Positions 5,992 through 22,483 of a DNA stretch of 39,434 nucleotides are shown here, one piece after another. This DNA comes from Nitrospirota bacterium (GTDB taxonomy: Bacteria; Nitrospirota; Thermodesulfovibrionia; Thermodesulfovibrionales; Magnetobacteriaceae). Position 1 is the first letter of the stretch; every line of letters begins with the position of its first letter. A model generated the notes under the pieces. That model was not told where the DNA came from. It made no database searches and saw only the letters and a list, made by a program, of their open reading frames with translations. The stretch covers positions 1 through 39,434 of the forward strand of contig JADFXG010000031.1 in assembly GCA_015233895.1 (NCBI GenBank). Reading direction: 5' to 3'. Both the position numbers and the translations under genes were made by a program.

Positions 5992-6606
5992 ATGGAAAAG
6001 CTATATGAGGTTTCTTTTGAAATTGCAGGTCCGGCAGCTATGTTTACACGGCCTGATACTGGTGCTGCTCAAGTATCCTATCCTGCACCTACATATTCAT
6101 CAGCCAAAGGTATCTTTGAAGCAGTCGCACGTTTAAAAAGTGCATATATTCAGCCAACGAAAGTAGAGATCTGTGCACCAATAAGATTTAGTAAATATGT
6201 CACAAATTCTGGCGGACCATTACGGAAAGCCAACCAGAAAAAAAGTGGTAGCTCTTACCAAATACCTGCCACTATTCTTGTGGACGTATGCTATAGAGTT
6301 TACGGAGTTGTAAAAGCTGTCACTGATTCACCAAATAATACTAATCATCTTCATGCACTTCAGGAAATTTTTAAACGACGACTGGTAAAAGGCCAACAAT
6401 ACTACACCCCTTGTTTAGGTTGGAGTGAATTTGTGCCCTCATATTTGGGTTTATTTCGAGAAAGTACAAATATAGAGAAAACAATTAATATTGTTATACC
6501 GTCAATGCTTCATGCCGTATTTGATAAACCGGTCAATGGTCAAATAAAATTTATATATCGTCAAAATGTGAAAATTACAAGTGGGGTGATTGCGTATGCT
6601 GAATGA
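5992..6606 (+). CDS. cas5: Cas5, type I-C-like (Cas5d), probable crRNA-processing nuclease
   Basis: A 204-aa Cascade subunit. The N-terminus reads YEVSFEIAGPAAMFTRPDTGA and is followed by SYPAPTYSSAKGIFEAV and IRFSKYVTN, the RAMP-fold pattern of Cas5d (ferredoxin-like, glycine-rich). In type I-C systems Cas5d replaces Cas6 and cleaves the pre-crRNA repeat hairpin; no cas6 is seen here, which fits. ATG 5992 follows GTGAGG. The gene overlaps cas8 by 11 bases. Compared with typical I-C Cas5d the sequence is divergent (e.g. PAPTYSSAKG where most have a PSAARG-type motif), so RNA cleavage is inferred. Confidence 0.82.
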   Translation: MEKLYEVSFEIAGPAAMFTRPDTGAAQVSYPAPTYSSAKGIFEAVARLKSAYIQPTKVEICAPIRFSKYVTNSGGPLRKANQKKSGSSYQIPATILVDVCYRVYGVVKAVTDSPNNTNHLHALQEIFKRRLVKGQQYYTPCLGWSEFVPSYLGLFRESTNIEKTINIVIPSMLHAVFDKPVNGQIKFIYRQNVKITSGVIAYAE

Positions 6607-8638
6607 ACTTATGACACTTAATATGTCACTTAAAAGATGTGAACTTACGGTACCACAAACTCATCCGTGGTTTAAGATCCCTGCACGTAAAGAAGGGTTT
6701 ATCGTCTGTATAAATTCTGATTGTAAGATAGAAACCTTAGAACATTGTACTAAAGAACGTATGGTAAATTTGTGGAAAATAATGCCTGATAATCAGAATA
6801 GCTTTCCTGTAATTAATTTTAGTTTACCAATCTGGCAACTACCTATATTGCCTACGTGTATACGCAAAATGTTGGATGATAAAGACGTAAAGCAACGGTG
6901 TAACAAGATGAAAGAAATCATACAGCAGTTGGAGCTATCTTATACAGAAGCCGAAAGAGATAAATTTGAGGGACGTATTTGTGGTTATCCCACAGAATTG
7001 CTGAAAATTTTAGACTGTAATAATTCTAAAATAAATGCTTTCTGTACACTAATAAATAGGTTACAATCTTATGAACATAACATAGACTGCTTTCTCAGAC
7101 AATTATACAAAGTTGCGGTTGATGGTTGTTTAAATGGTAGTATTGAACAGATTGATTTGGTAGAGGAATTGCTTTTTGGGAAATGGAATGAAAAAAAGAA
7201 AAAATTCATTTGTGATATCCCTTTAATATTCGATTTAGCAGATTACGCCAATTTTAATTATAGAATAGCTGCTCCTGATCTTAAAAATATATTAAGTGAA
7301 ATTCTTTTGAGAAGGCCAATAGATGAAACAAACAAAGATTTATGCTCTCTGTCGGGGGAGATAACAGTAATTGAGCAAAATACTTTTCCGCAACCGTCAC
7401 TGCCAAAACTTGGTCCAACTTTTCTCTTTTCTATGAATAAGGATGCACCCTGTCATAGCAGATATGGAAAAGTTAGTTCAGATATATTCCCTGTTGGAAA
7501 AGATTTATTGAAAGAACTAAATGATGCACTTAAATTTATCGTAGACGAAAAACGTGAAGGTAAAACATGGAAATCCATACCTGGTAAAAGCATTGCTGAG
7601 AGCGACTTACTTATTGTTTACCTTGAGGATAAACCTGAAAGTGAAATAAATCTGGCTGAGCTTCTTAACGATGCTGATGAGAGCGAATTTTCTGAAGCTA
7701 TGTATGAAAAAGTAACGACTAAAGTTTGCTCAGCCCTTGAGGGAGAAGAAGGTATTACAAAGGAATCTTTAGTTCGTGTTTTTGTACTTAGAAAAATAGA
7801 TCCGGGACGTAGGCAAATTGTACTAAATTCATCTTTCACGGTTAAAAATATACTCACAGGAGTTACGGAATGGCAAGTTGCAGCTAAAAACCATCCTATC
7901 ATCTTACCATTAATAAAAGATCAAGCAAATTATTATGTACTTTCGCCTGCTTCAGTTATGCGGTGCTTTCAGTATAAGTGGATAAGAAATGGCACTGAAA
8001 AGACTAAAGTGTCTGGAATTGGTCTGCAAGAGGTTTATGATATTCTTCTTGGGGTACCAAAAGAAAGTGAACATTCAGCAAAAAGACTGTTATCACTTGC
8101 TCTTCAACGGCAGATATCGCTTGTGTTAGGTATAGGTGAAGCTATTCGTTCAGATAATCTTAAAATTTTGAATAAATTCAAACAGGAAGGCAAAAAACCA
8201 ACACTTAAAGCAGTGACACTCTTTTCCATACTGCTTTACAAACTAGGACATAAAAAGGAGGTGTATATGAAAGAAGCAACTTTTAACGTAGGCAGACTAC
8301 TTGCCCTAAGTGATGATCTACACATTCAGTATTGCAAGCATGTGAGAAAAAACGAAATTCCGCCTCAACTGATTGGTAATGCTTTAATGTCTTCAGCTAT
8401 GGAAAATCCTGAACGTGCCATAACGAGGCTTTGGAATCGCCTGTTGGTATATCAGGCATGGGCAAATAAAGTGCAAGGTGAGGAGTATACATTAGTTAAA
8501 TGGATTTTGGGTCAGATTGGAAAGGTCTGTGCAGAATTGGCCAGTGTTACCTTACCACGACAAACAACAGATGCTGACAAGACAAAAATGCTTTTAGGCT
8601 ACCTTGCCCGTTCAGAGGGTAGGAATCAAGATAAGTAA
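6596..8638 (+). CDS. cas8c: Cas8c-like large Cascade subunit (Csd1-like)
   Basis: A 680-aa protein in the slot of the type I-C large subunit, which recognises PAM and recruits Cas3. ATG 6596 follows GGGGTG and overlaps cas5. Identification rests on position between cas5 and cas7, size, and a C-terminal helical part resembling Csd1/Cas8c (NVGRLLALSDDLH, PPQLIGNALM, NPERAITRLWNRL; ~residues 555-630). The first 250 residues are not recognisable to me. It is longer than most Csd1 proteins (about 580-620 aa) and strikingly AT-rich, so it belongs to a divergent branch. An alternative is a Cas8 of an unnamed I-C relative. Confidence 0.7.
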   Translation: MLNELMTLNMSLKRCELTVPQTHPWFKIPARKEGFIVCINSDCKIETLEHCTKERMVNLWKIMPDNQNSFPVINFSLPIWQLPILPTCIRKMLDDKDVKQRCNKMKEIIQQLELSYTEAERDKFEGRICGYPTELLKILDCNNSKINAFCTLINRLQSYEHNIDCFLRQLYKVAVDGCLNGSIEQIDLVEELLFGKWNEKKKKFICDIPLIFDLADYANFNYRIAAPDLKNILSEILLRRPIDETNKDLCSLSGEITVIEQNTFPQPSLPKLGPTFLFSMNKDAPCHSRYGKVSSDIFPVGKDLLKELNDALKFIVDEKREGKTWKSIPGKSIAESDLLIVYLEDKPESEINLAELLNDADESEFSEAMYEKVTTKVCSALEGEEGITKESLVRVFVLRKIDPGRRQIVLNSSFTVKNILTGVTEWQVAAKNHPIILPLIKDQANYYVLSPASVMRCFQYKWIRNGTEKTKVSGIGLQEVYDILLGVPKESEHSAKRLLSLALQRQISLVLGIGEAIRSDNLKILNKFKQEGKKPTLKAVTLFSILLYKLGHKKEVYMKEATFNVGRLLALSDDLHIQYCKHVRKNEIPPQLIGNALMSSAMENPERAITRLWNRLLVYQAWANKVQGEEYTLVKWILGQIGKVCAELASVTLPRQTTDADKTKMLLGYLARSEGRNQDK

Positions 8639-8661
8639 ATATGACAATATGGAGGAAAATT

Positions 8662-9540
8662 ATGAGTAATCAAAATGATGGAAACGATTGCATAAAAAAG
8701 GCCACAGGTCTTTTAATCATTGAGGTGAGAGGTTCAAATCCCAACGGTGACCCAGATCGCGAAAGTGATCCTCGTCAGCGGTATGATGATCGAGGTGAAA
8801 TATCACCTGTTTCATTTAAACGAAAAGTACGAGATTTGGTTGAAAACAAAGAGGGCCCTGTTTGGCAAGAAATCTCAAAAATGTTCAAGCCTAAATTAGA
8901 GGATGCTAAATTTCACATATTGGAAAGCCGTGGAAGAGACCGTAAAGCGATAGAAAACGAAATTAAAGATGGTACATTTAAGGAAAAATATTGGGACGGC
9001 AGGGTTTTTGGAAACACTTTTCTGGAGGAAGGTTCATCGACATCTATCAGGACAGGCGTTGTTCAATTTGGTCTTGGTATTTCCATTGCACCAATTGAAA
9101 TAGAACGAATGACTACAACCAATAAGGCAGGGGTTCAGGAGGACAAAGATCGAGGGATGGCACCTTTAGGTTATCGTATTGTTTCACATGGTGTGTATTG
9201 TATGCCTTTTTTTGTCAATCCAACTGCAGCAACTGCAACAAGTTGTACTAATACAGACATTGAGCTTTTAAAAAGAATACTACCTTACGCTTATTCTCAT
9301 ACAGCCTCTTATATTAGGTCTTTTGTCGGTATTCGTCACGCCTGGTATATCGAGCATAAATCGCAATTAGGTTCCTGTTCAGATTTCAAGTTAATTGATG
9401 CTTTGACACCAAAAAAGAAAGAGAACTTCGATCCAGAAAAGCCGTCTAAAACATGGGACGAATATGACTTTCCCACTAAATTGCCAGAAGATTTGAAAAG
9501 CAAGGTCAAACCACTTCTTGACTTGATGGATATGCAATAA
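8662..9540 (+). CDS. cas7: Cas7, type I-C-like Cascade backbone (Csd2)
   Basis: A 292-aa backbone protein that would coat the crRNA spacer in several copies. The start at ATG 8662 is chosen because GGAGGAAAATT lies just before it; ATG 8641 has none. It shows the Csd2/Csh2 hallmark SNPNGDPDRESDPR, then SFKRKVRDLVE and a central GVVQFGLGISIAPIE segment. The stop overlaps the following cas3 start (TAATG), so the two are translationally coupled. Such coupling of cas7 to cas3 is unusual, because I-C operons usually begin with cas3. Confidence 0.88.
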   Translation: MSNQNDGNDCIKKATGLLIIEVRGSNPNGDPDRESDPRQRYDDRGEISPVSFKRKVRDLVENKEGPVWQEISKMFKPKLEDAKFHILESRGRDRKAIENEIKDGTFKEKYWDGRVFGNTFLEEGSSTSIRTGVVQFGLGISIAPIEIERMTTTNKAGVQEDKDRGMAPLGYRIVSHGVYCMPFFVNPTAATATSCTNTDIELLKRILPYAYSHTASYIRSFVGIRHAWYIEHKSQLGSCSDFKLIDALTPKKKENFDPEKPSKTWDEYDFPTKLPEDLKSKVKPLLDLMDMQ

Positions 9541-11744
9541 TGGAAGCGTTGGCACACAGTGCAAGGGCTGAACAAGGTATTCCGCCTCAGACTTATGCTG
9601 AGCATGTCATAAATGTTTTGGAGAGAACTCAAAAAAACGCTTCTGAAGCTGCTAAATACTTTGAAGACTCAAATCAAGCATTTGTTGATAAAGTAGCTGC
9701 AGCCGCTTTATTTCATGATTTAGGGAAATTAGACGACGAAAACCAGAAAGTTTTGAGAAATCATTCAAAAAAGAAGCTGCCAATAAATCACGTGGATGCT
9801 GGTTGCGTTTATTTGAAACAACGCAACCAGCTTCAGGCGGCATTTCTGATATATAGTCACCACGCTGGTTTATGCTCATTGCCAGATGAGGTTGTCAGAG
9901 ACAGTCTTTTTTGCCGTGTCAGGGATATTGCTACACAGCAACGCACAAATGAGTTGATTAATGACTATAAAACATTACATGAAGATATCTTAGATTCATG
10001 TGTGATAAAAAATGTTAGCGGTGGCATCAATTGGAATGGACTAACTTATCGTTTAGGTCTTTCATGTTTGGTAGATGCTGATCACAGTGATACTGCACAG
10101 CATTACGAAAATGAAGGAAATTTAGAATATAAGGATTTACGCTGGGAAGAGAGACTGCGGGCTCTTGATAAGTTTGTTGAGACCGAATTCAAAAAAGATC
10201 CGTATTCAGCTCGTAATTTGCAACGTCAAGAAATTTATGACTCATGCAGAAAGGCAGATACTATTACACCGATTCAGGCATGTGAGAGTCCTGTTGGTAC
10301 AGGTAAGACAACATCGGTTATGGCACATTTATTACAAGCTGCTATAACAAAAAAATTGAGACATATTATTGTGGTGCTGCCATATACAAACATTATCAAA
10401 CAGTCAGTTAAAACTTACCGTAAAGCTCTTGTTCTTGCAGGTGAAAGTCCTGAGCAAATCGTTGCAGAACATCATCATCAGGCAGATTTTGAAAGTAAAG
10501 AATTACGCAGTCTGTCTTCGCTTTGGAAGTCTCCAATAATCGTTACAACGGCAGTTCAGTTTTTTGAAACTTTGGGAAGTAATATGCCTGCAAAACTCAG
10601 AAAGTTGCATGAACTTCCTGGTTCAGCCATATTCATTGATGAGGCACACGCTGCAATTCCGTCCTGGTTATGGCCTCAAACGTGGCTGTGGTTTAAGAAT
10701 TTAACAAATTGGGGTTGTCATTTTGTCTTAGCATCTGGATCACTGCCTCGATTTTGGACAATGGAAAAATTCGTTTCCCCAACAGAACAAATACCCGATT
10801 TAGTATTAGACGAACTACGGCAACGTTCAAGTAAAAGTGAGTTTGAAAGAATAACTTACAGAACATGTGATGAACCGTTTGACCGTAAGAGTTTGATAGA
10901 TTTTATTATGTCTCAACGTGGTCCAAGGCTTGTAATAATGAATACTATTCAGTCGGCTGCTGTAGTTGCTAATGAAATGCAAAAGGCTGGTCATACAGTA
11001 TTACACCTATCTACAGCATTAACCCCTGTTGATAGAAATCGAATTGTAAATCAAGTAGTGCAATTACTTAAACAAGAGAGAAATATCGAAACGAAAAATA
11101 CCGATTGGACGCTTGTAGCCACAAGCTGTATAGAAGCAGGAATGGATTTTTCTTTTGCTACTGCTTTGCGGGAAAGTTGCAATGTTGCAGGTTTAATTCA
11201 AATCGGAGGACGTGTAAACAGAAATCATGAAGGTACAACTAGGGATGTTTGGGATTTTCGTGTTCTTGACCCTCTGTTAAACCGACATCCATCCTTTGAG
11301 ACAAGTCGTGCTGTGCTCGATAATTTGTTTAAAGAACAATTGATCCAAAAAATGTCAGCGACAGATGTCATGACTGAAGGTATGAGAAGAGAGATAATGA
11401 GCAACTATAGCAATAATGCAGAGGATATAAAAAAAAGCGAAAAAAAGGGGGATTATCCTAAAGTTTCTGAACTTTACAGAGTTATTAAGGCTGATACACG
11501 TATTGTTGTCGTAGATAAGAAAATTATAGAGGCATTAGAAAATCATGAAAAAGTTACTACTTTAGATTTACTAAGGAACAGTGTTCAAATATGGTTTCAG
11601 AAAATAAATGCTCTGACTCTTGAGAATGTTAAGGGATATGATGAACTCTTTAAGTGGACATGGCCTTACGACCCTGATTTTCTTGGGATTATGAAAGGGG
11701 TTTTACCCCTTGTTTATGCAAAAGAAGATGGTTTAATTTTTTAG
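9540..11744 (+). CDS. cas3: Cas3 HD nuclease-helicase
   Basis: A 734-aa effector that unwinds and degrades target DNA after Cascade binding. An N-terminal HD domain carries His5 (LAHSAR), HD at 59-60 (LFHDLGK), a following NHVDAG and SHHAG. The SF2 helicase has Walker A PVGTGKTT (253-257 core), DEAH at 367-370, ASGSL, SCIEAGMDF and IQIGGRVNRNH (motif VI). All catalytic motifs are intact. It starts at ATG 9540, overlapping the cas7 stop, and sits between cas7 and cas4 and not at the operon head. Its N-terminus differs from the relic at 5822, so it is a second, unrelated cas3 that probably arrived with this effector module. Confidence 0.93.
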   Translation: MEALAHSARAEQGIPPQTYAEHVINVLERTQKNASEAAKYFEDSNQAFVDKVAAAALFHDLGKLDDENQKVLRNHSKKKLPINHVDAGCVYLKQRNQLQAAFLIYSHHAGLCSLPDEVVRDSLFCRVRDIATQQRTNELINDYKTLHEDILDSCVIKNVSGGINWNGLTYRLGLSCLVDADHSDTAQHYENEGNLEYKDLRWEERLRALDKFVETEFKKDPYSARNLQRQEIYDSCRKADTITPIQACESPVGTGKTTSVMAHLLQAAITKKLRHIIVVLPYTNIIKQSVKTYRKALVLAGESPEQIVAEHHHQADFESKELRSLSSLWKSPIIVTTAVQFFETLGSNMPAKLRKLHELPGSAIFIDEAHAAIPSWLWPQTWLWFKNLTNWGCHFVLASGSLPRFWTMEKFVSPTEQIPDLVLDELRQRSSKSEFERITYRTCDEPFDRKSLIDFIMSQRGPRLVIMNTIQSAAVVANEMQKAGHTVLHLSTALTPVDRNRIVNQVVQLLKQERNIETKNTDWTLVATSCIEAGMDFSFATALRESCNVAGLIQIGGRVNRNHEGTTRDVWDFRVLDPLLNRHPSFETSRAVLDNLFKEQLIQKMSATDVMTEGMRREIMSNYSNNAEDIKKSEKKGDYPKVSELYRVIKADTRIVVVDKKIIEALENHEKVTTLDLLRNSVQIWFQKINALTLENVKGYDELFKWTWPYDPDFLGIMKGVLPLVYAKEDGLIF

Positions 11745-11762: not shown

Positions 11763-12425
11763 ATGTTTTCTGAAGACGACCTTCTACCTCTTTCAGCGCT
11801 GCAGCATCTGATTTTTTGCGAGAGGCAGTGTGCGCTGATACACATTGAGCAGGTGTGGGATGAAAATCTCTACACGGCTGAGGGCAGAATTATGCACGAA
11901 CACGTTGATTCCGGTAAAAGCGAAAACAGGGGCGATGTCAGAGTTGCAACGGGCGTTCCCATCAGATCACTTATGCTTGGGCTCTCCGGTAAAGCCGATG
12001 TCGTGGAGTTTCATAAAATCCGTAGCGATTCAAACAATAAACGGATTACATGGCAGCCTTTTCCGGTAGAGTATAAACGCGGCAAACCCAAGCGTGACAA
12101 CTGCGACAAGGTGCAGTTGTGCGCTCAGGCAATTTGTCTTGAGGAAATGCTCAACATTGAAGTAAATCATGGAGCAATGTTTTACGGCACAACCAGAAGA
12201 CGGCTTGATGTCCTGTTTGATGACGGGCTTAGACACGAAACAACTCAGGCTGCCATAAGACTTCATGAGCTGATAGAATCCGGTATAACCCCTCCGCCTG
12301 TCTATAGCCCTAAGTGTAAAAACTGTTCCCTTTTAGAAATATGCCTGCCGGATAAGATTAAAAAAGGCTATTTCTCGTCTGTGGAAACATATATTAAAAA
12401 GTGTCTCACACAGGTGGTGGAATGA
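11763..12425 (+). CDS. cas4: Cas4 adaptation nuclease
   Basis: A 220-aa RecB-like nuclease with an iron-sulfur cluster that helps choose PAM-bearing prespacers with Cas1-Cas2. Cluster ligands are Cys19 or Cys23 (FCERQC) and C-terminal Cys185, Cys188, Cys194 (CKNCSLLEIC). Nuclease motifs are GKADVVEF (Asp) and PVEYKRGKP (E-x-K). ATG 11763 follows GAGGGG. It overlaps cas1 by four bases (ATGA). From here on base composition is GC-richer than in cas5-cas8-cas7-cas3, suggesting a separate history. Confidence 0.93.
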   Translation: MFSEDDLLPLSALQHLIFCERQCALIHIEQVWDENLYTAEGRIMHEHVDSGKSENRGDVRVATGVPIRSLMLGLSGKADVVEFHKIRSDSNNKRITWQPFPVEYKRGKPKRDNCDKVQLCAQAICLEEMLNIEVNHGAMFYGTTRRRLDVLFDDGLRHETTQAAIRLHELIESGITPPPVYSPKCKNCSLLEICLPDKIKKGYFSSVETYIKKCLTQVVE

Positions 12426-13453
12426 AACGGCTGCTTAACACGCTATATGTAACAACACAGGGAGCGTATCTGTCAAAAGAGGGTGAGACCGTGGTGGTGC
12501 AAGTCGGCGATGATACGCTTGCGAAAGTGCCTGTGCATACGCTTGGCAGCGTGGTATGCTTTGGGCAGGTGATGGTCAGTCCACCACTTATGGGATTTTG
12601 CGCAGAGAGAAATGTTTCGATAAGTTTCCTGACCGAATATGGACGGTTTTTAGCAAAAGTGCAGGGACCGGTCTCCGGCAATGTTTTATTACGCCGTGAG
12701 CAGTACCGCCGGGCGGACAGTGCTGAGGAATCGGCCAAAATAGCAAGGTCGGTGTTGACGGCTAAGATTTCCAACAGTCGAACGGTGTTAAGGCGCATGT
12801 TGAGGGACCATCCGGAGCGGCTTGACAGTGATGATGTGTTAAAATCGGCAACGCGGCTTAGCGTATCGCTTAGAAAGGTTCAGGCTGCGACAACGCTTGA
12901 TGAATTAAGAGGGATAGAGGGTGATGCGGCGCATCATTACTATAGCGTCTTTGACAATCTGATAATCAATCAGAAGGAGGAATTCTTCTTTAAGGGAAGG
13001 AACAGGCGACCGCCTATGGACAATGTCAACTGCTTGCTATCATTTTTATATACGTTGGTTCTTCATGACATCCGAGGGGCGTGTGAAACGGTGGGGCTTG
13101 ATCCGGCGGTGGGGTACTTACACAGGGATCGACCCGGACGTGCTGGGCTTGCGCTTGACATGTTAGAGGAGTTCCGTCCGTATCTGGCAGACAGGTTTGT
13201 GTTGAGTCTGATAAACTTAAATCAGGTGAAACCTTTAGGATTTAAGAAACTTGAAACAGGAGCAGTTACGATGGATGATGAAACGCGCAAGGTAGTATTA
13301 GTTGCGTATCAAAAGCGTAAACAGGATGAGATAACGCATCCGTTTTTGAATGAGAAGGTATCCGTGGGGATATTGTTTCACATTCAGGCGATGTTGTTTG
13401 CGCGATTTATACGTAATGATCTGGATGGGTATCCACCGTTTATATGGCAGTGA
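12422..13453 (+). CDS. cas1: Cas1 integrase, type I-C
   Basis: A 343-aa spacer-integration enzyme. The start at ATG 12422 overlaps the cas4 stop; an in-frame GTG at 12401 would lie deeper in cas4. The metal-binding residues expected for Cas1 are visible: Glu166 (GIEGDAAHHYY), His234 (YLHRDRPGR) and Glu249/Glu250 (LDMLEEFRPY). Length and sequence (MKRLLNTLYVTTQGAYL start) are typical of the I-C Cas1 group. The gene is intact, but its partner cas2 next to it is frameshifted, so adaptation may be impaired. Confidence 0.95.
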   Translation: MKRLLNTLYVTTQGAYLSKEGETVVVQVGDDTLAKVPVHTLGSVVCFGQVMVSPPLMGFCAERNVSISFLTEYGRFLAKVQGPVSGNVLLRREQYRRADSAEESAKIARSVLTAKISNSRTVLRRMLRDHPERLDSDDVLKSATRLSVSLRKVQAATTLDELRGIEGDAAHHYYSVFDNLIINQKEEFFFKGRNRRPPMDNVNCLLSFLYTLVLHDIRGACETVGLDPAVGYLHRDRPGRAGLALDMLEEFRPYLADRFVLSLINLNQVKPLGFKKLETGAVTMDDETRKVVLVAYQKRKQDEITHPFLNEKVSVGILFHIQAMLFARFIRNDLDGYPPFIWQ

Positions 13454-13466
13454 GGGATGAGGGATA

Positions 13467-13753
13467 ATGTTGGTACTGATAAGTTATGATGTATCGGTAG
13501 ATGGCAATGGCAAGCAGAGGCTGCGGCGTGTTGCGAGGCGTGTCAGGACTATGGTCAGCGGGTGCAGTATTCGGTATTTGAGTGCTTGTTGGATCCAGCG
13601 CAGTGGACGGTATTGCGGCAGAGACTGATAGAGGAGATAGACAAGGAGCATGATAGTCTTCGGTTTTACTTTCTTGGTTCAAACTGGAAACACCGTGTGG
13701 AGCATATAGGAGCGAAGGGGGTGTTGGATCAGGAGGGACCGTTAGTATTCTAA
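13467..13753 (+). pseudogene. cas2: cas2 with one-base deletion
   Basis: ATG 13467 opens a Cas2 start (MLVLISYDVSVDGNGKQRLR) but after ARR the frame is lost. Reading on in the frame two bases ahead from ~13541 gives CQDYGQRVQYSVFECLLDP and then a normal Cas2 end (SLRFYFLGSNW, stop at 13751-13753). Restoring one base near 13540 gives 95 residues, the usual length. The lesion lies in the segment just before the conserved QDYGQRVQ motif. It may be a true mutation that disables spacer acquisition, or an assembly error. No slippery homopolymer lies at the point of shift, so programmed frameshifting is not favoured. Confidence 0.85.
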
Positions 13754-13936
13754 GTAGTGGCGAACCCTAAGCGGACAAATTTTTCCATGGGAGGTTCGCA
13801 GGACTTAAAAAGTGTTTACAAACAATGACTTATAAGTATTGTTCTTTGAAAACGATGATAGAATCAGAGATAAAAGGAGAGGTTTGCGGAAAGAGGTCAA
13901 ATAAGTTATAATAATCAGTAAGTTACGTAAGTGACC
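13754..13936 (+). promoter_or_regulatory. CRISPR leader
   Basis: The 183 bases between cas2 and the first repeat form the leader, which contains the array promoter and the site where new spacers insert. It holds an inverted repeat (13760-13766 with 13793-13799, GCGAACC/GGTTCGC) and then AT-rich sequence running into the first repeat. The position next to cas2 and the 5' to 3' repeat direction (ending ATTGAAAC) show that the array is transcribed rightward. Confidence 0.8.
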
Positions 13937-14621
13937 GTCGCTCCCCACGCGGGAACGTGGATTGAAACAAAATAGTCACTCATAATATTGTTTAATTCAG
14001 TGTCGCTCCCCACGCGGGAACGTGGATTGAAACTAAAGAGCTAAAATCTAAACGGTTGAGCGCGGCGTCGCTCCCCACGCGGGAACGTGGATTGAAACTA
14101 ACATATAGGCAACCACATTTGCCGATGTGCAGTCGCTCCCCACGCGGGAACGTGGATTGAAACTTCTATATCATCAAGGCCGACTGGGTTAAATATGGTC
14201 GCTCCCCACGCGGGAACGTGGATTGAAACTTCTATATCATCAAGGCCGACTGGGTTAAATATGGTCGCTCCCCACGCGGGAGCGTGGATTGAAACTAAAT
14301 ATTAGAACTTTATCCAATAAAATCAAGGAGTCGCTCCCCACGCGGGAGCGTGGATTGAAACGTATCCACATATGTCTTTCATCCGGGTCCCAGGTCGCTC
14401 CCCACGCGGGAGCGTGGATTGAAACCGATGGAGGAGCTTGGGACAGAAATGCGCTCTATGTCGCTCCCCACGCGGGAGCGTGGATTGAAACTGTGCTTTT
14501 TGCGAAGGCTTGTATTTTTACATCGTCGCTCCCCACGCGGGAGCGTGGATTGAAACGCCTACAATACGCTAACCACAATCAGGGTTATGGTCGCTCCCCA
14601 CGCGGGAGCGTGGATTGAAAC
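13937..14621 (+). CRISPR. Type I-C CRISPR array, 11 full repeats
   Basis: Eleven 32-bp repeats start at 13937, 14002, 14067, 14132, 14198, 14264, 14330, 14394, 14460, 14525 and 14590, with ten spacers of 32-34 nt between them. The repeat begins GTCGCTCCCC and ends GTGGATTGAAAC, the known I-C type. Repeat positions 3-9 pair with 15-21 to form a hairpin with a 5-nt loop. Repeats 1-5 have A at position 19 and repeats 6-11 have G; the A creates a C-A mismatch in the stem. Spacers 4 (14164-14197) and 5 (14230-14263) are identical. An eleventh spacer (14622-14653) and a degenerate repeat follow. Confidence 0.98.
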
Positions 14622-14653
14622 ACCAAACCACGACATAAGGCCGGACTCGATAT

Positions 14654-14666
14654 GTCGCTCCACACC
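14654..14666 (+). repeat. Degenerate terminal CRISPR repeat
   Basis: GTCGCTCC matches the first eight repeat bases, then the sequence diverges (ACACCG...). It closes spacer 11 at the leader-distal end. A few bases later the terminal sequence of an IS3-like element begins, so the array was truncated here, either by decay or by the insertion. Confidence 0.75.
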
Positions 14667-14669
14667 GAA

Positions 14670-15481
14670 TGAGGTTGATAGGAAATATGGACACCAAAGT
14701 TTATGTAAATGTGTCAAAATGAAAGGATACCCAAGGGCATTAAACAAAGGAATTACGTTAGGAAACAGTAAAGTTAGCGATAGAAGGGAAAGTTTCGGTA
14801 TTAGAGGCAAGCCGTAGGTTATCGTTGTCAACCTTGACGTTGGGAAACTGGCTGAAGACTTATAAAAAAGGGGCACTAAAGGAAGCAGGGAAAACACAGA
14901 GGCCTCTGAGTGATTTAGAAATGGAAAACAGCAAGTTAAAGAAGGAGCTTTCAAAAGTAAAGAAGGAGCGAGAACTACTAAAAAAGCGGTCGCATACTTT
15001 GCTCCGGTACGCGATGATGAAAGAGATGCGACCTCGATACACAGTGCCATTTATGAGCCGGATTTTGGGCGTATCATCAAGCGGTTATTACGCGTGGTTG
15101 CACAGAGCAGCATCGAGACGTGTCCGGGAAGAAGTACGGCTGTGGAAATAGAGATAAGGGCTGCGCATAATCGTACCCGGCAAACGTACGGTTCCGAGCG
15201 GCTACAACGTGATCTTTCGGAACATGGTCTAAATATTGGTATTTGCTGTATCAAACGTATCCGCAAGAAACCTGGTATACGAAGTAAGCAAAAGAGGAGA
15301 TTTAAGGCTACGAGACCGACTCAAGGCATACGTTTCCTGTGGCAGATAACTACTTAATCAGCAATTTGAGGTAACGGCCCAGAATCAGGTCTGGTTAAGC
15401 GATATTACTTACATCCACTCAGAAGAATTGTGGTTGTACCTTGCAGGTCACAAGAATTTATTTAACGGCGAAATAGTAGGC
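14670..15481 (+). mobile_element. Decayed IS3-family element with broken orfA-orfB transposase
   Basis: The left end begins near TGAGG at 14670, followed by a GGACACC...GTGTCAAAATGA segment typical of IS3-group ends. OrfA homology runs ETVKLAIEGKVSVLEASRRL, then TLGNWLKTY and a coiled-coil region, with a TAG at 14759-14761 breaking its start. OrfB homology follows: RYTVPFMSRILGVSSSGYY, a shift near 15140, RAAHNRTRQTYGSERLQRDL, shifts near 15325 and 15350, then QNQVWLSDITYI (first DDE aspartate) and FNGEIVG. The rest of the DDE domain and the right end are missing. It cannot be active. It abuts the CRISPR array directly. Confidence 0.88.
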
Positions 15482-17965: not shown

Positions 17966-18324
17966 TGTCAACAGGTTCAAGGCTATTAATTGTGGTTTTG
18001 GGGGTTATCCTTTTTGCAATAATATTTGAACTGGTGCGCAGAAGAAAGTTCAGGGAAGAGCATTCGCTTTTATGGTTTGTCGTCAGCATCTGTATTATAA
18101 GCGGCGCTTTTTTGGATGATGTTGTAAACCGAATGGCCATGCTCCTTGGCGTTGGATATCCGCCTGTCATAGTGCTTGTGTTTTTAACTGTTTTACTTAT
18201 CCTGTCACTTATGTACTTTTCGATAATTATATCCGACCTGAAAGGAAAAATTAAGGAGTTAAACCAGAAAATTGCCTTTCTTGAATATGAGATAAGTAAT
18301 ACTGGCCGGGAACTTAAAAAATGA
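17965..18324 (+). CDS. DUF2304 small membrane protein
   Basis: A 119-aa protein with three hydrophobic helices (~6-24, ~34-52, ~68-90) and a coiled C-terminal tail (KGKIKELNQKIAFLEYEI). The sequence LVRRRKFREEHSLLWF is characteristic of DUF2304. The family commonly accompanies GT2 enzymes that make lipid-linked sugars and is thought to assist them in the membrane; that role is inferred. It is translationally coupled to the GT2 gene upstream and overlaps the restriction-modification gene downstream by four bases (ATGA). Confidence 0.85.
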   Translation: MSTGSRLLIVVLGVILFAIIFELVRRRKFREEHSLLWFVVSICIISGAFLDDVVNRMAMLLGVGYPPVIVLVFLTVLLILSLMYFSIIISDLKGKIKELNQKIAFLEYEISNTGRELKK

Positions 18325-21300
18325 CAGATGATGTAAGAATTTTATATATAAATAATCAAAGCCTGTTTTCCAATAATTATCTTAAATTCCGTTTACAAAA
18401 ACTGGACTTATGGAAAACTCAGGAAAGGAAAGCTCAGAACGTATTTGAAAACATACAAGCATATTATTACGATATGATTGCGCTAAGTCCCGGACCTGGC
18501 AGAGAGTCCGAGCTTGAGGATAAATTTATCAGACCTGTTTTATCCGCTCTGGGTTTTAAGTATTCCGTAGAGCCTGTTACAGAGAGAGGATACAAGGCAA
18601 AAAAAAGACCCGATTATGCGTTATTTAAAGATTCTGAATCACTTGAATCGGCAAGCGCAGATAAAAATAATCCGAGAAAATTCTTTTCTAATGCACTGAC
18701 CATAGTTGAGGCAAAGTACTGGGGACGGCGTCTTAACGACATGGATAAAACTGACAGCCTTGACAGCAGAGACCCAACTGCTCAAGCTGTAAAATACCTT
18801 GAAGACGTCCATTATCACAGCGAGGGCAGAATAAACTGGGCAATACTTACAAACGGCAAACTGTGGCGGCTGTTTTATTACAGGGCAAGTTCAAAGTCGG
18901 GGAATTTTTATGAAGTTGACCTTGAAAAAATAATCACTAACAACGATATTAGCAGCTTTCTATACTTTTACTTGTTCTTTTCAAAAGATGCCTTCATTGA
19001 GGATTCCACTACTGGGAAATCATGGCTTGATCTGCATCTTAAAAGCTCTGAGGATTATGCCGTCAGAGTCAGCGAAAAACTCAAATTTTTAATTTTTGAT
19101 AAAATATTTGAGACTCTTGCAGAGGGTTTTCTCCATTACAGAAAGACAGAGCTTTTCATAACTGTTGAGACCGAGGAGTCTAAGAAAAAGATGTTTAAAG
19201 GATGTCTCACTTTTTTGTACCGCCTGCTGTTTTTACTCTATGCGGAAAGCCGCAATCTTCTGCCCATGGATAACGACAGTTACAGAGGGGTCAGCCTGAG
19301 CGCTTTAAAAGGAGACATTGTAAGTGACATTTCCAAGCATGGCATTGGTGGGATGAGTAAAAGGTTGTTCAAGTATTGGGCACGGCTTGAGGGTCTTTTT
19401 AGTATAATCTCAAAAGGTGAGCCTGCTATGAATTTGCCAGTGTATAATGGCGGTTTGTTTGAAGTTTCAGAAGATAATATTTTAAAAGACCACAGAATAC
19501 CTGACCCTTTTATAGCTGAGGTGGTAGAGCTTCTTACTGTGGACACAGATGATGAGCACTCAGTTGACTCAACATCATTTATAGATTATTCCTCACTTGG
19601 GGTACGGCATCTGGGTGATATATATGAGGGGCTTTTGGAGTTTCATCTGCAGATAGCCGGGGAGGCGGTAGCAGAGGCGAAAGAAAAAGGGAAATCGGTA
19701 TGGAAAAAAGTTTCTGAGCTAAAATCTGGTATAAAAACAGGGAAAAGAAAGGAAACAGGAGACGCTTATATAGAAAACTCTAAACATGAGCGGAAAACAA
19801 GCGGTTCATACTATACGCCGCCTTATATCGTTGAGTACATTGTTAAAAACACGGTCGGCCAGGTGCTTGATGAGAAATTTATGAAAGCCGGTAACCTGAT
19901 ATCTGAACTAAGTGCTGTCAAAAGTTTAATAAAGAAACAGAAATCCACATCCTCGATACAAAACTATGCTGCTGAAATAAAAAGACTGGAGGATGCCGTA
20001 TTTGAGACCGTGTTTGATATAAGGGTGCTTGATCCGGCGATTGGAAGTGGCCACTTTCTTGTGCACACTGTTGATTTTATATCTGACAGGATAGCAGCTT
20101 TTCTTTCAAAGCATCCGGAAAATCCTGTGATTAACAGAATTTACTCACTTAAAAGAGAAATAATGGAGGAAATTGCACGCCAGGGAGTCAGAATTGATGA
20201 AAACAAACTGACGGAAACAAGCCTTATAAAACGTGTTGTGCTGAAGCGCTGTATATACGGTGTGGACTTAAATGACATGGCTGTGGAATTGGCTAAGCTT
20301 TCTCTTTGGCTTGATTCTTTTACATCAGGTGCGCCACTTTCTTTTTTAGATCACCATTTAAAGTGCGGCAACAGCCTGATAGGCGTTATGGACATATCCA
20401 GTGTTGTGCTGCCCAACTCTGAGGCATTCTCAAAAGTGCAGCGTGCCCTGTCCTTTATGATTCAGGTATCGGAGTTAACCGATGCAACAGTAGATGAGAC
20501 TCAAAAGAGTAAAAAATTCTTTAAAGAAGCTGACAGTGAGCTTGCTCCAATACGCAGAAGATTTGACGTCCATATTGCTAAACATTTTATGGTTACCGGA
20601 AATAATATAAGCCGGCTTGAGCGTTTAGCCTCCACACTGGATTTTGACAATGAACCTTATCCTGAGGTTGTTAAGGCATGTAAGGACGCACTTTTGATAG
20701 CAAAAGAGAAACGTTTTTTCCACTGGAAACTGGAGTTTCCTGAGGTTTTCTATTCAAATGCCGGTGAGCTCACAAATCCCGGTTTTGATTGTGTTATTGG
20801 AAATCCGCCGTATATAAACATTATGTTTATAAAAGACAATGAAATAGATTTTTTTAAGAAAACCTATATGGTTTTAAGAAGACGATTTGACCTTTATACA
20901 TTATTCAGTGAGCGTTCATTATATTTACTGAAGACTTTAGGCTATCATGCGTTCATTGTTCCAAATAAAATACTAAGTGAAACCTATGCCTCATCTTTAA
21001 GAAAACTGTTCCTTGAAAAAGTTAAAATAAATTATATTTTGGATGTAAGTGAACTCAACATATTTCCTGAAGCTGCAGTAAAGCCAATAGTTTATGTTAT
21101 AGAAAACAGGGCTGTTCCGGAAAACAAAATTGAAATTGAAACTCCGTTTAAAGATGATGTTTCAAATTTAAAGAAAAATCAAATTCCGCAAAATGATTTC
21201 TTGAATATTCCAGAGTTTAGAATAAGATTAAATTGGACAGAGACAATTAAAAACATAATACATAAAATTGATAAAACATCATTTCCGGCATCGAGAATTC

Positions 21301-22439
21301 TTTATGTAAGTTGGGGGGCTCAACCAGGATTTGTAGATAGATTTTTTTATGAAGGAATCGAACCCGAATGTGAAAATCCTGCCGGTAAATGTGAAGCCAA
21401 GCATTGCTTTTCAAAAAGGGGACTTTGTAAACCATTAGTAAAAGGAAGCTCCGTTGAAAGATATGGCATTATATATGAAAATTTACATATTATTTACGAT
21501 ACGCAAGCTCTGCACAGACCTGCCTTTCCAGGACTGTTTGAAAACGAAAAAATAATCAGCAGTAAAGTTACAGGGAAAAAAGGAATTGTTTCAGCATATG
21601 ACGATAGCAGGTTCTATACTGATGATTCTTTGGTAAATTGCATTTTAAAATATCATCTGAAAGACATTGACTCCGGTATCCTAAGAGAACGAGGCATAAG
21701 ATTCAGCGATGAGCAACGAGTGGAAAACGAAAAAAACAACAAAGTATATGACAGGGATTCGATAATTTACGAAAAAGATTTTTTAGAAAGTAAGGATTTT
21801 AGCTTATTTTTCTTGCTTTCACTTTTTAACTCTTCACTGATAGGATTCTATTATTTAAACTACGTAAGTGGTGAGCTAAACGTTTTTCCAGAGCATGTAA
21901 GAACATTACCGGTTAGTCATATATCGTTTACTACTGAGCCTGAGATAAGAAGTAAAATGCTAATTAATTTAACAACATTATATAATCAGAGAAAGTATAA
22001 AGAACTATCAGAGATAACAGACAATGAACTATCCTCACGCCGTAACGACACGATTCATGACCTGTTAGCATATCTTGCAAAACAGATGGTGGAAATGAAT
22101 AAGGAAAAGAATGCAGAAAAGAAGGGATTTTTGAAATGGTTTGAGCGTGAAATCAAAGGACATATAGCTGAGCTAACCGGTAAAAGTTTGATAAGGCAGT
22201 ATAATGACCATAAATTTGAAGAGATAATTGAAATACTCAGGAAAAACAAAATCAGGATTAAAATCAATCCTTCAAACAGAAAAATTCAAAACATGCTTGA
22301 AGCGGAGTTTACTAATAGCAACGCAATAATTGCTCCTCTGCAAACAAAAATAAACGAAACCGACAAACTGATAGACAGTATCATTTATAAACTTTACGAT
22401 CTGACAGATGAGGAAATAAAAATTATCGAGAGCAGTTAA
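18321..22439 (+). CDS. Type IIG-like restriction-modification protein (Eco57I-type)
   Basis: A 1372-aa single-chain enzyme expected to cut and methylate DNA. An N-terminal PD-(D/E)xK nuclease is visible as Asp98 (RPDYALF) and Glu130-x-Lys132 (IVEAKYW). A helical region leads to the N6-adenine methyltransferase: SGSYYTPPYIVEYIV, motif I DPAIGSGHF (571-579), and motif IV NPPY at 828-831. The C-terminal ~450 residues, including a Cys/His-rich stretch (CENPAGKCEAKHC), would form the target-recognition part. No separate specificity or restriction subunit lies nearby. The ATG overlaps the DUF2304 stop, so a defence gene is coupled to an envelope-glycan gene. The recognition site cannot be predicted by eye. 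Confidence 0.88.
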   Translation: MTDDVRILYINNQSLFSNNYLKFRLQKLDLWKTQERKAQNVFENIQAYYYDMIALSPGPGRESELEDKFIRPVLSALGFKYSVEPVTERGYKAKKRPDYALFKDSESLESASADKNNPRKFFSNALTIVEAKYWGRRLNDMDKTDSLDSRDPTAQAVKYLEDVHYHSEGRINWAILTNGKLWRLFYYRASSKSGNFYEVDLEKIITNNDISSFLYFYLFFSKDAFIEDSTTGKSWLDLHLKSSEDYAVRVSEKLKFLIFDKIFETLAEGFLHYRKTELFITVETEESKKKMFKGCLTFLYRLLFLLYAESRNLLPMDNDSYRGVSLSALKGDIVSDISKHGIGGMSKRLFKYWARLEGLFSIISKGEPAMNLPVYNGGLFEVSEDNILKDHRIPDPFIAEVVELLTVDTDDEHSVDSTSFIDYSSLGVRHLGDIYEGLLEFHLQIAGEAVAEAKEKGKSVWKKVSELKSGIKTGKRKETGDAYIENSKHERKTSGSYYTPPYIVEYIVKNTVGQVLDEKFMKAGNLISELSAVKSLIKKQKSTSSIQNYAAEIKRLEDAVFETVFDIRVLDPAIGSGHFLVHTVDFISDRIAAFLSKHPENPVINRIYSLKREIMEEIARQGVRIDENKLTETSLIKRVVLKRCIYGVDLNDMAVELAKLSLWLDSFTSGAPLSFLDHHLKCGNSLIGVMDISSVVLPNSEAFSKVQRALSFMIQVSELTDATVDETQKSKKFFKEADSELAPIRRRFDVHIAKHFMVTGNNISRLERLASTLDFDNEPYPEVVKACKDALLIAKEKRFFHWKLEFPEVFYSNAGELTNPGFDCVIGNPPYINIMFIKDNEIDFFKKTYMVLRRRFDLYTLFSERSLYLLKTLGYHAFIVPNKILSETYASSLRKLFLEKVKINYILDVSELNIFPEAAVKPIVYVIENRAVPENKIEIETPFKDDVSNLKKNQIPQNDFLNIPEFRIRLNWTETIKNIIHKIDKTSFPASRILYVSWGAQPGFVDRFFYEGIEPECENPAGKCEAKHCFSKRGLCKPLVKGSSVERYGIIYENLHIIYDTQALHRPAFPGLFENEKIISSKVTGKKGIVSAYDDSRFYTDDSLVNCILKYHLKDIDSGILRERGIRFSDEQRVENEKNNKVYDRDSIIYEKDFLESKDFSLFFLLSLFNSSLIGFYYLNYVSGELNVFPEHVRTLPVSHISFTTEPEIRSKMLINLTTLYNQRKYKELSEITDNELSSRRNDTIHDLLAYLAKQMVEMNKEKNAEKKGFLKWFEREIKGHIAELTGKSLIRQYNDHKFEEIIEILRKNKIRIKINPSNRKIQNMLEAEFTNSNAIIAPLQTKINETDKLIDSIIYKLYDLTDEEIKIIESS

Positions 22440-22456
22440 CTGTTCCTTACCGACTC

Positions 22457-22483
22457 TATAATTTCGTAAAATTTAGCTATAAT
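22457..22483 (+). promoter_or_regulatory. Possible promoter region for HD-GYP gene
   Basis: Two TATAAT hexamers (22457-22462 and 22478-22483) occur in the 116-base gap before the HD-GYP gene. Neither has a convincing TTGACA-like partner at 16-18 bases, so this is only a candidate. Confidence 0.3.

Follow-up and report, generated by a model that had tools for sequence, protein, structure and literature searches.

The window analysed here, a stretch of 39,434 nucleotides from a genome of the phylum Nitrospirota, carries a cas operon in the order cas5-cas8c-cas7-cas3-cas4-cas1-cas2 ahead of a CRISPR array. The genes of the operon are the following:

5992-6606, + strand: cas5, encoding a divergent Cas5c
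6590-8638, + strand: cas8c of a variant family (PADLOC PDLC01562, 509 bits)
8641-9540, + strand: cas7
9540-11744, + strand: cas3 (HD nuclease and helicase)
11763-12425, + strand: cas4, where homology to the congener G003 starts
12401-13453, + strand: cas1 of I-C type (TIGR03640, 520 bits; 97% identity to G003)
13467-13753, + strand: cas2, reading frame broken near 13535

The adaptation module is of type I-C. Cas1 scores 520 bits against TIGR03640, for which the cut-off is 385, Cas4 matches the PADLOC Cas4c model PDLC01773 with 284 bits, and both lie beside the array together with a cas2 whose reading frame is shifted near 13535 by comparison with G003 and with a second congener, G002, in both of which it is intact. 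The effector proteins are further from the familiar models. Cas5 reaches 42.4 bits against NCBIfam Cas5d (cut-off 85) and Cas7 118.4 bits against Csd2 (cut-off 182), which places the system in a divergent variant of type I-C, outside the canonical branch. The 682-aa Cas8 had no match in NCBIfam or Pfam; since it matches PADLOC Cas8c PDLC01562 along residues 3-678 (6e-153), it is a Cas8c, and the effector is a divergent I-C variant that is already known. Loci with the variant operon were also seen in 16 named genome records, which cover Nitrospirae, Deltaproteobacteria and other groups, with Candidatus Magnetominusculus sp. LBB02 among the nearest. In two relatives a single repeat-like element separates cas1 from cas2 (L017:16853-16884 and L018:11808-11839), possibly an old array remnant or a regulatory element; the window has none.

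The array (13937-14621) consists of 11 repeats of 32 nt, with the following features in and around it:

13754-13936, + strand: leader, from cas2 to repeat 1, aligned with the leaders of G003 and G002
13937-13968, + strand: repeat 1, A19
14002-14033, + strand: repeat 2, A19
14067-14098, + strand: repeat 3, A19
14132-14163, + strand: repeat 4, A19
14198-14229, + strand: repeat 5, A19, probably a duplicate of repeat 4
14132-14263, + strand: tandem duplication of the unit of repeat 4 and spacer 4, as two identical copies of 66 nt
14264-14621, + strand: repeats 6-11, ancestral G19, with intervening spacers
14622-14665, + strand: terminal spacer (31/34 nt as in G003) and truncated, degenerate last repeat
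14666-15357, + strand: degraded IS3-type insertion remnant, common to G003

Repeats 1-5 are five exact copies with A at position 19 (...GGGAACG...) and read GTCGCTCCCCACGCGGGAACGTGGATTGAAAC, and repeats 6-11 are six exact copies with G (...GGGAGCG...) and otherwise the same sequence; the split claimed in the original prediction was thus confirmed, with exact coordinates. Given five variant repeats among eleven, a block at the leader end is one of 462 possible arrangements. That the leader lies at the 13937 end follows from the position of cas2 upstream, from a leader of about 184 nt conserved in G003 and G002, and from the degenerate repeat start at the opposite end. Spacer 5 has the same sequence as spacer 4, and the unit of repeat 4 and spacer 4 is repeated exactly, so repeat 5 is best read as a duplicate copy and not as the product of an acquisition; two separate captures of one spacer are a less likely alternative. 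The remainder of the 3.71-Mb genome contains no other copy of the repeat in a search allowing 3 mismatches, and comparison with Rfam gave sub-threshold CRISPR-DR matches only.

The repeat can form a 7-bp stem (C3-G21, G4-C20, C5-G19, T6-A18, C7-G17, C8-G16 and C9-G15), at the base of which lies the cut site of type I-C Cas5. A19 opposes C5, in the third pair from this site, so that the pairing and the resulting C-A mismatch are as originally described. The predicted effect on the isolated repeat goes beyond a plain mismatch and amounts to re-folding. The G form adopts the canonical stem at -13.0 kcal/mol, while the A form is predicted at -6.3 kcal/mol with the canonical, mismatched stem and at -7.2 kcal/mol with a shifted hairpin that pairs 9-13 with 20-24 and buries the cut site, which falls between 21 and 22. 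When the flanking spacers were random, the mean probability of pair 3-21 was 0.06 for the A form and 0.41 for the G form. With their own spacers, the G repeat R8 also folds poorly and R7 and R11 are weak at the base, so that in the real context folding alone leaves a visible difference with no clean separation of the two classes. The G19 repeat nevertheless has the form expected of type I-C (about 32 nt, basal hairpin, 11-nt 3' tag), whereas the A19 repeat does not fold in this way.

The basal stem was retained in the other arrays examined. C5-G19 is kept in the consensus of eight arrays of 32-nt repeats beside the same effector family (L017, L018, L020, L029, L031, L048, L053 and L054), in which pair 6-18 may be T-A, C-G or G-C and pair 9-15 C-G or T-A. 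In the 35-nt repeat of L023, T-A replaces C-G at the third pair. The 37-nt repeats of L024 and L026 were left out for pair 5-19, because some of their bases fell out of register when positions were counted from the 3' tag. These neighbouring arrays, with their covariation, indicate that this Cas5 family normally meets an intact stem.

Within a CRISPR array the repeats usually do not differ from one another other than towards the trailer. The array of G003 is orthologous to that of the window, having leader, terminal spacer and trailer in common; the last spacers of the two arrays agree at 31 of 34 positions, and they have no further spacer in common. Each of the 17 repeats of G003 carries G19, with a C8T change that retains a wobble pair in the two at the trailer end. 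In G002, of the same genus, G19 is present in 42/42 repeats, the last of which has two other changes. The phylum was surveyed in 395 genomes with the pattern GTCGC-N13-[A/G]CGTGGATTGAAAC, which fixes C5 and adjacent bases and therefore gauges the rarity of A19, not the conservation of the whole stem: G19 was found in 825 repeats (the sum of per-genome counts) from 52 genomes and A19 in six, namely the five of the window array and a solitary one in genome G051. The latter (GTCGCGCCCCGCGTGGGCACGTGGATTGAAAC, L060:10247-10278) had no array and no matching cas gene around it in the 16 kb fetched. The A19 repeat had no match in plasmids. Stem-breaking variants elsewhere were single repeats (repeat 20/21 of L020, repeat 42/42 of G002 and one in the contig-end array L059), and a leader-side run was seen only in the window among the arrays compared. 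On this comparative evidence A19 is to be regarded as derived and G19 as ancestral. Duplication of the leader-end repeat during acquisition is established (PMC4466440), and we infer that it copied A19 forward: the array is best explained by one substitution, about three copying acquisitions and one unit duplication. The single origin and the spread by acquisition proposed earlier fit congeners with G19 throughout, the orthologous array included; repeat 5 is the exception, being best explained by the duplication of repeat 4 and spacer 4.

The same comparison with G003 showed a boundary within the operon. Nucleotide alignment extends from 11764, the start of cas4, through cas1, cas2, the leader, the ends of the array and the IS3-type remnant to 18295, and Cas4 and Cas1 are 92% and 97% identical, respectively. 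Directly before cas4, however, G003 has canonical Csd1/Csd2, and its Cas7 is only 27% identical to that of the window. The effector set of G002 is of a third kind, its Cas7 being 30% identical to that of G003. Thus, three congeners combine common adaptation genes and the same G19 repeat with three unlike effectors. We conclude from these alignments that the effector module (5992-11744) has been exchanged at the cas4 boundary. As the two congeners are canonical, it is parsimonious to regard the window lineage as the recipient of the variant effector, a direction that three genomes do not prove. Beyond the aligned region, 18296-22474 is absent from the G003 alignment and was therefore either inserted in the window genome or lost in G003; it holds a gene for a PglX-like methyltransferase (18321-22439).

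The original prediction took the hairpin to be a Cas5d substrate. The stem is as described, but the window Cas5 is a divergent Cas5c apparently without the canonical catalytic Lys, so that textbook Cas5d behaviour cannot be assumed. Its AlphaFold2 model (mean pLDDT 75.7) has a Cas5c fold, with Z scores of 17-20 to nine Cas5c-type chains against 12.0 for the next group, and the structures that it matches best are Cas5 chains of type I-C, among them 3kg4, 3vzi, 7kha, 4f3m and 8g9t. The alpha2 Lys has been described as invariant in Cas5c (PMC3727216). Across the variant family its column, six to five residues before a conserved Phe-x-Arg-Arg, holds Ala or Tyr, with a one-residue alignment shift being possible, and the His one residue before it (His121 in the window) is invariant. 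The alpha1 Tyr/His is likewise missing from the variant Cas5. No Cas6 match was obtained in six genomes that carry this effector family (G013, G085, G081, G146, G151 and G220), which suggests that the Cas5 of this family probably still processes the repeat, perhaps by another active site.

The window genome itself does encode an orphan Cas6 (L065, G000:C2:73903-74499; TIGR01877, 105.9 bits), for which a negative result with PF10040 in the same genome had been misleading. Its neighbours are non-cas genes (pentapeptide repeat, epimerase, radical SAM), and no CRISPR array was found in the approximately 58 kb read around it. Such a Cas6 could cut the window array and make a stem recognised by Cas5 irrelevant, and the repeat ends in ATTGAAAC, which we take to be a common Cas6 handle. 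Nonetheless, we hold this to be very improbable, because the gene is unlinked to the locus and the system seems to work without Cas6 in the six genomes mentioned above. The genome also contains a separate type II locus (L066, G000:C7 near 104-110 kb) with a 994-aa Cas9, with cas1 and with an array in which a 36-nt repeat occurs about 20 times.

We lean towards a history in which A19 hitch-hiked on acquisition and lowers cutting by Cas5c. According to this proposal, a G-to-A change would have arisen once at position 19 of the repeat then beside the leader, later acquisitions duplicating the leader-side repeat would have carried it into three further repeats, and duplication of one repeat-spacer unit would have brought the number to five. 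In the pre-crRNA, A19 would disrupt the third base pair counted from the Cas5 cut site and favour the shifted hairpin 9-13/20-24 that hides it, so that Cas5c would most likely cut A19 repeats less efficiently. The yield of mature crRNAs 1-4, for which both cuts fall in A repeats, and of the 5' end of crRNA 5 would then be lower. A19 lies upstream of the cut and is absent from the 5' handle and should therefore affect processing only, leaving handle and guide normal once cutting has occurred. A19 itself would not have been selected but would have travelled with useful or neutral spacers. The original observation and its evolutionary reading thus stand, with the duplication as a correction, and the functional claim is a plausible prediction.

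B. halodurans Cas5d recognises its repeat by the hairpin and by the unpaired 3' part (PMC3890593), and the minimum that it needs is reported to be a tetraloop on a 3-bp stem (PMC7064716). In the I-C complex of D. vulgaris the 5' handle is bound by Cas5c, and the 3' stem-loop is not kept (PMC7684278). The B. halodurans requirements may not apply to a divergent Cas5 that apparently lacks the canonical Lys. It must also be taken into account that spacers acquired after the mutation are still in the array, which one would not expect of useless spacers. Moreover, Cas5 binding can stabilise weak hairpins, which likewise counts against reduced processing. It is most likely that A19 is mildly harmful or neutral and that the yield of crRNAs from the newest spacers is, as we infer, lowered but not abolished.

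The retained spacers and the divergent Cas5 make tolerance of A19 a real rival, in which pair 5-19 is dispensable for the variant Cas5c, the incoming enzyme accepts a weak stem, A19 is neutral and all crRNAs are made equally. The effector difference with its breakpoint at cas4, the apparent lack of the canonical Lys and the lack of the alpha1 Tyr/His beside an invariant His121, and the acquisitions that went on after the mutation all point this way. We consider it possible but not probable, since the basal stem is preserved in arrays that accompany this Cas5 family, where L023 shows a compensatory change and pairs 6-18 and 9-15 covary. A more far-reaching version, which seems to us rather doubtful, is that this Cas5c family has a different active site (His121, no canonical Lys) and reads mainly the single-stranded 3' part, so that the hairpin lost its constraint after the exchange and A19 is an early change of the repeat.

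The broken cas2, absent from G003 and G002, raises the question of whether A19 is drift in a failing system whose stem constraint is relaxed, as do the degraded IS3-type remnant in the trailer and an array of 11 repeats where relatives have 17, 42 and 71. We find this distinctly unlikely: all six remaining cas genes have open frames, adaptation must still have worked when acquisition copied the A repeats, and the IS remnant is common to G003 and so older than A19. Acquisition copied A19 before the cas2 break, and A19 therefore did not prevent integration. Unless the frameshift is a sequence error, acquisition has probably stopped and A19 can no longer spread. That faulty assembly, or the mixing of arrays from two strains, produced the A/G split is hardly to be believed. 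The split is known from one assembly, but between cas4 and the end of the trailer the contig is collinear with that of G003, the genome is estimated at 100% complete with 0.01% contamination, and the five A repeats are perfect and consecutive. As to the spacers, exact 24-nt cores of spacers 1, 2, 3, 4, 6 and 8 were unmatched in a viral contig collection, and matches of the spacer region to phage records were weak, partial or in several pieces and are not credible protospacers.

The array is a small, well-dated natural experiment and not a new type of system. It offers a single Cas5 both forms of its substrate from a single promoter, so that the need for the stem in vivo is measurable with an internal control, and the genus provides a second comparison, in which one repeat is used with three unlike effector modules. 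Like the canonical type I-C systems of B. halodurans and D. vulgaris (Dvulg), the locus has a 32-nt repeat, a 7-bp stem and an 11-nt 3' tag, an operon without cas6, an I-C Cas1 and a Cas5c fold. It differs from them in gene order, in Cas5 and Cas7 below the cut-offs, in a Cas8 without NCBIfam match, in a Cas5 apparently without the canonical Lys and in its five stem-breaking repeats. With the PDLC01562 Cas8c family it shares a full-length Cas8 match and, where loci are long enough, the operon order, but among the loci of this family examined only the window has A19 repeats and a G003-type adaptation module. Adaptation modules and arrays are known to stay fixed while effectors shuffle (PMC6452270), and an orthologous cas4-cas1-array with a differing effector in a congener is a further instance of such in situ exchange, here with an identical repeat across three unlike effectors in one genus. 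Finally, rare internal single-nucleotide variants beside a typical repeat have been described in S. agalactiae CRISPR1 (PMC4466440), whereas the window variant forms a leader-side run on a stem pair by the cut site; the A19 run is thus ordinary in kind and unusual in position.
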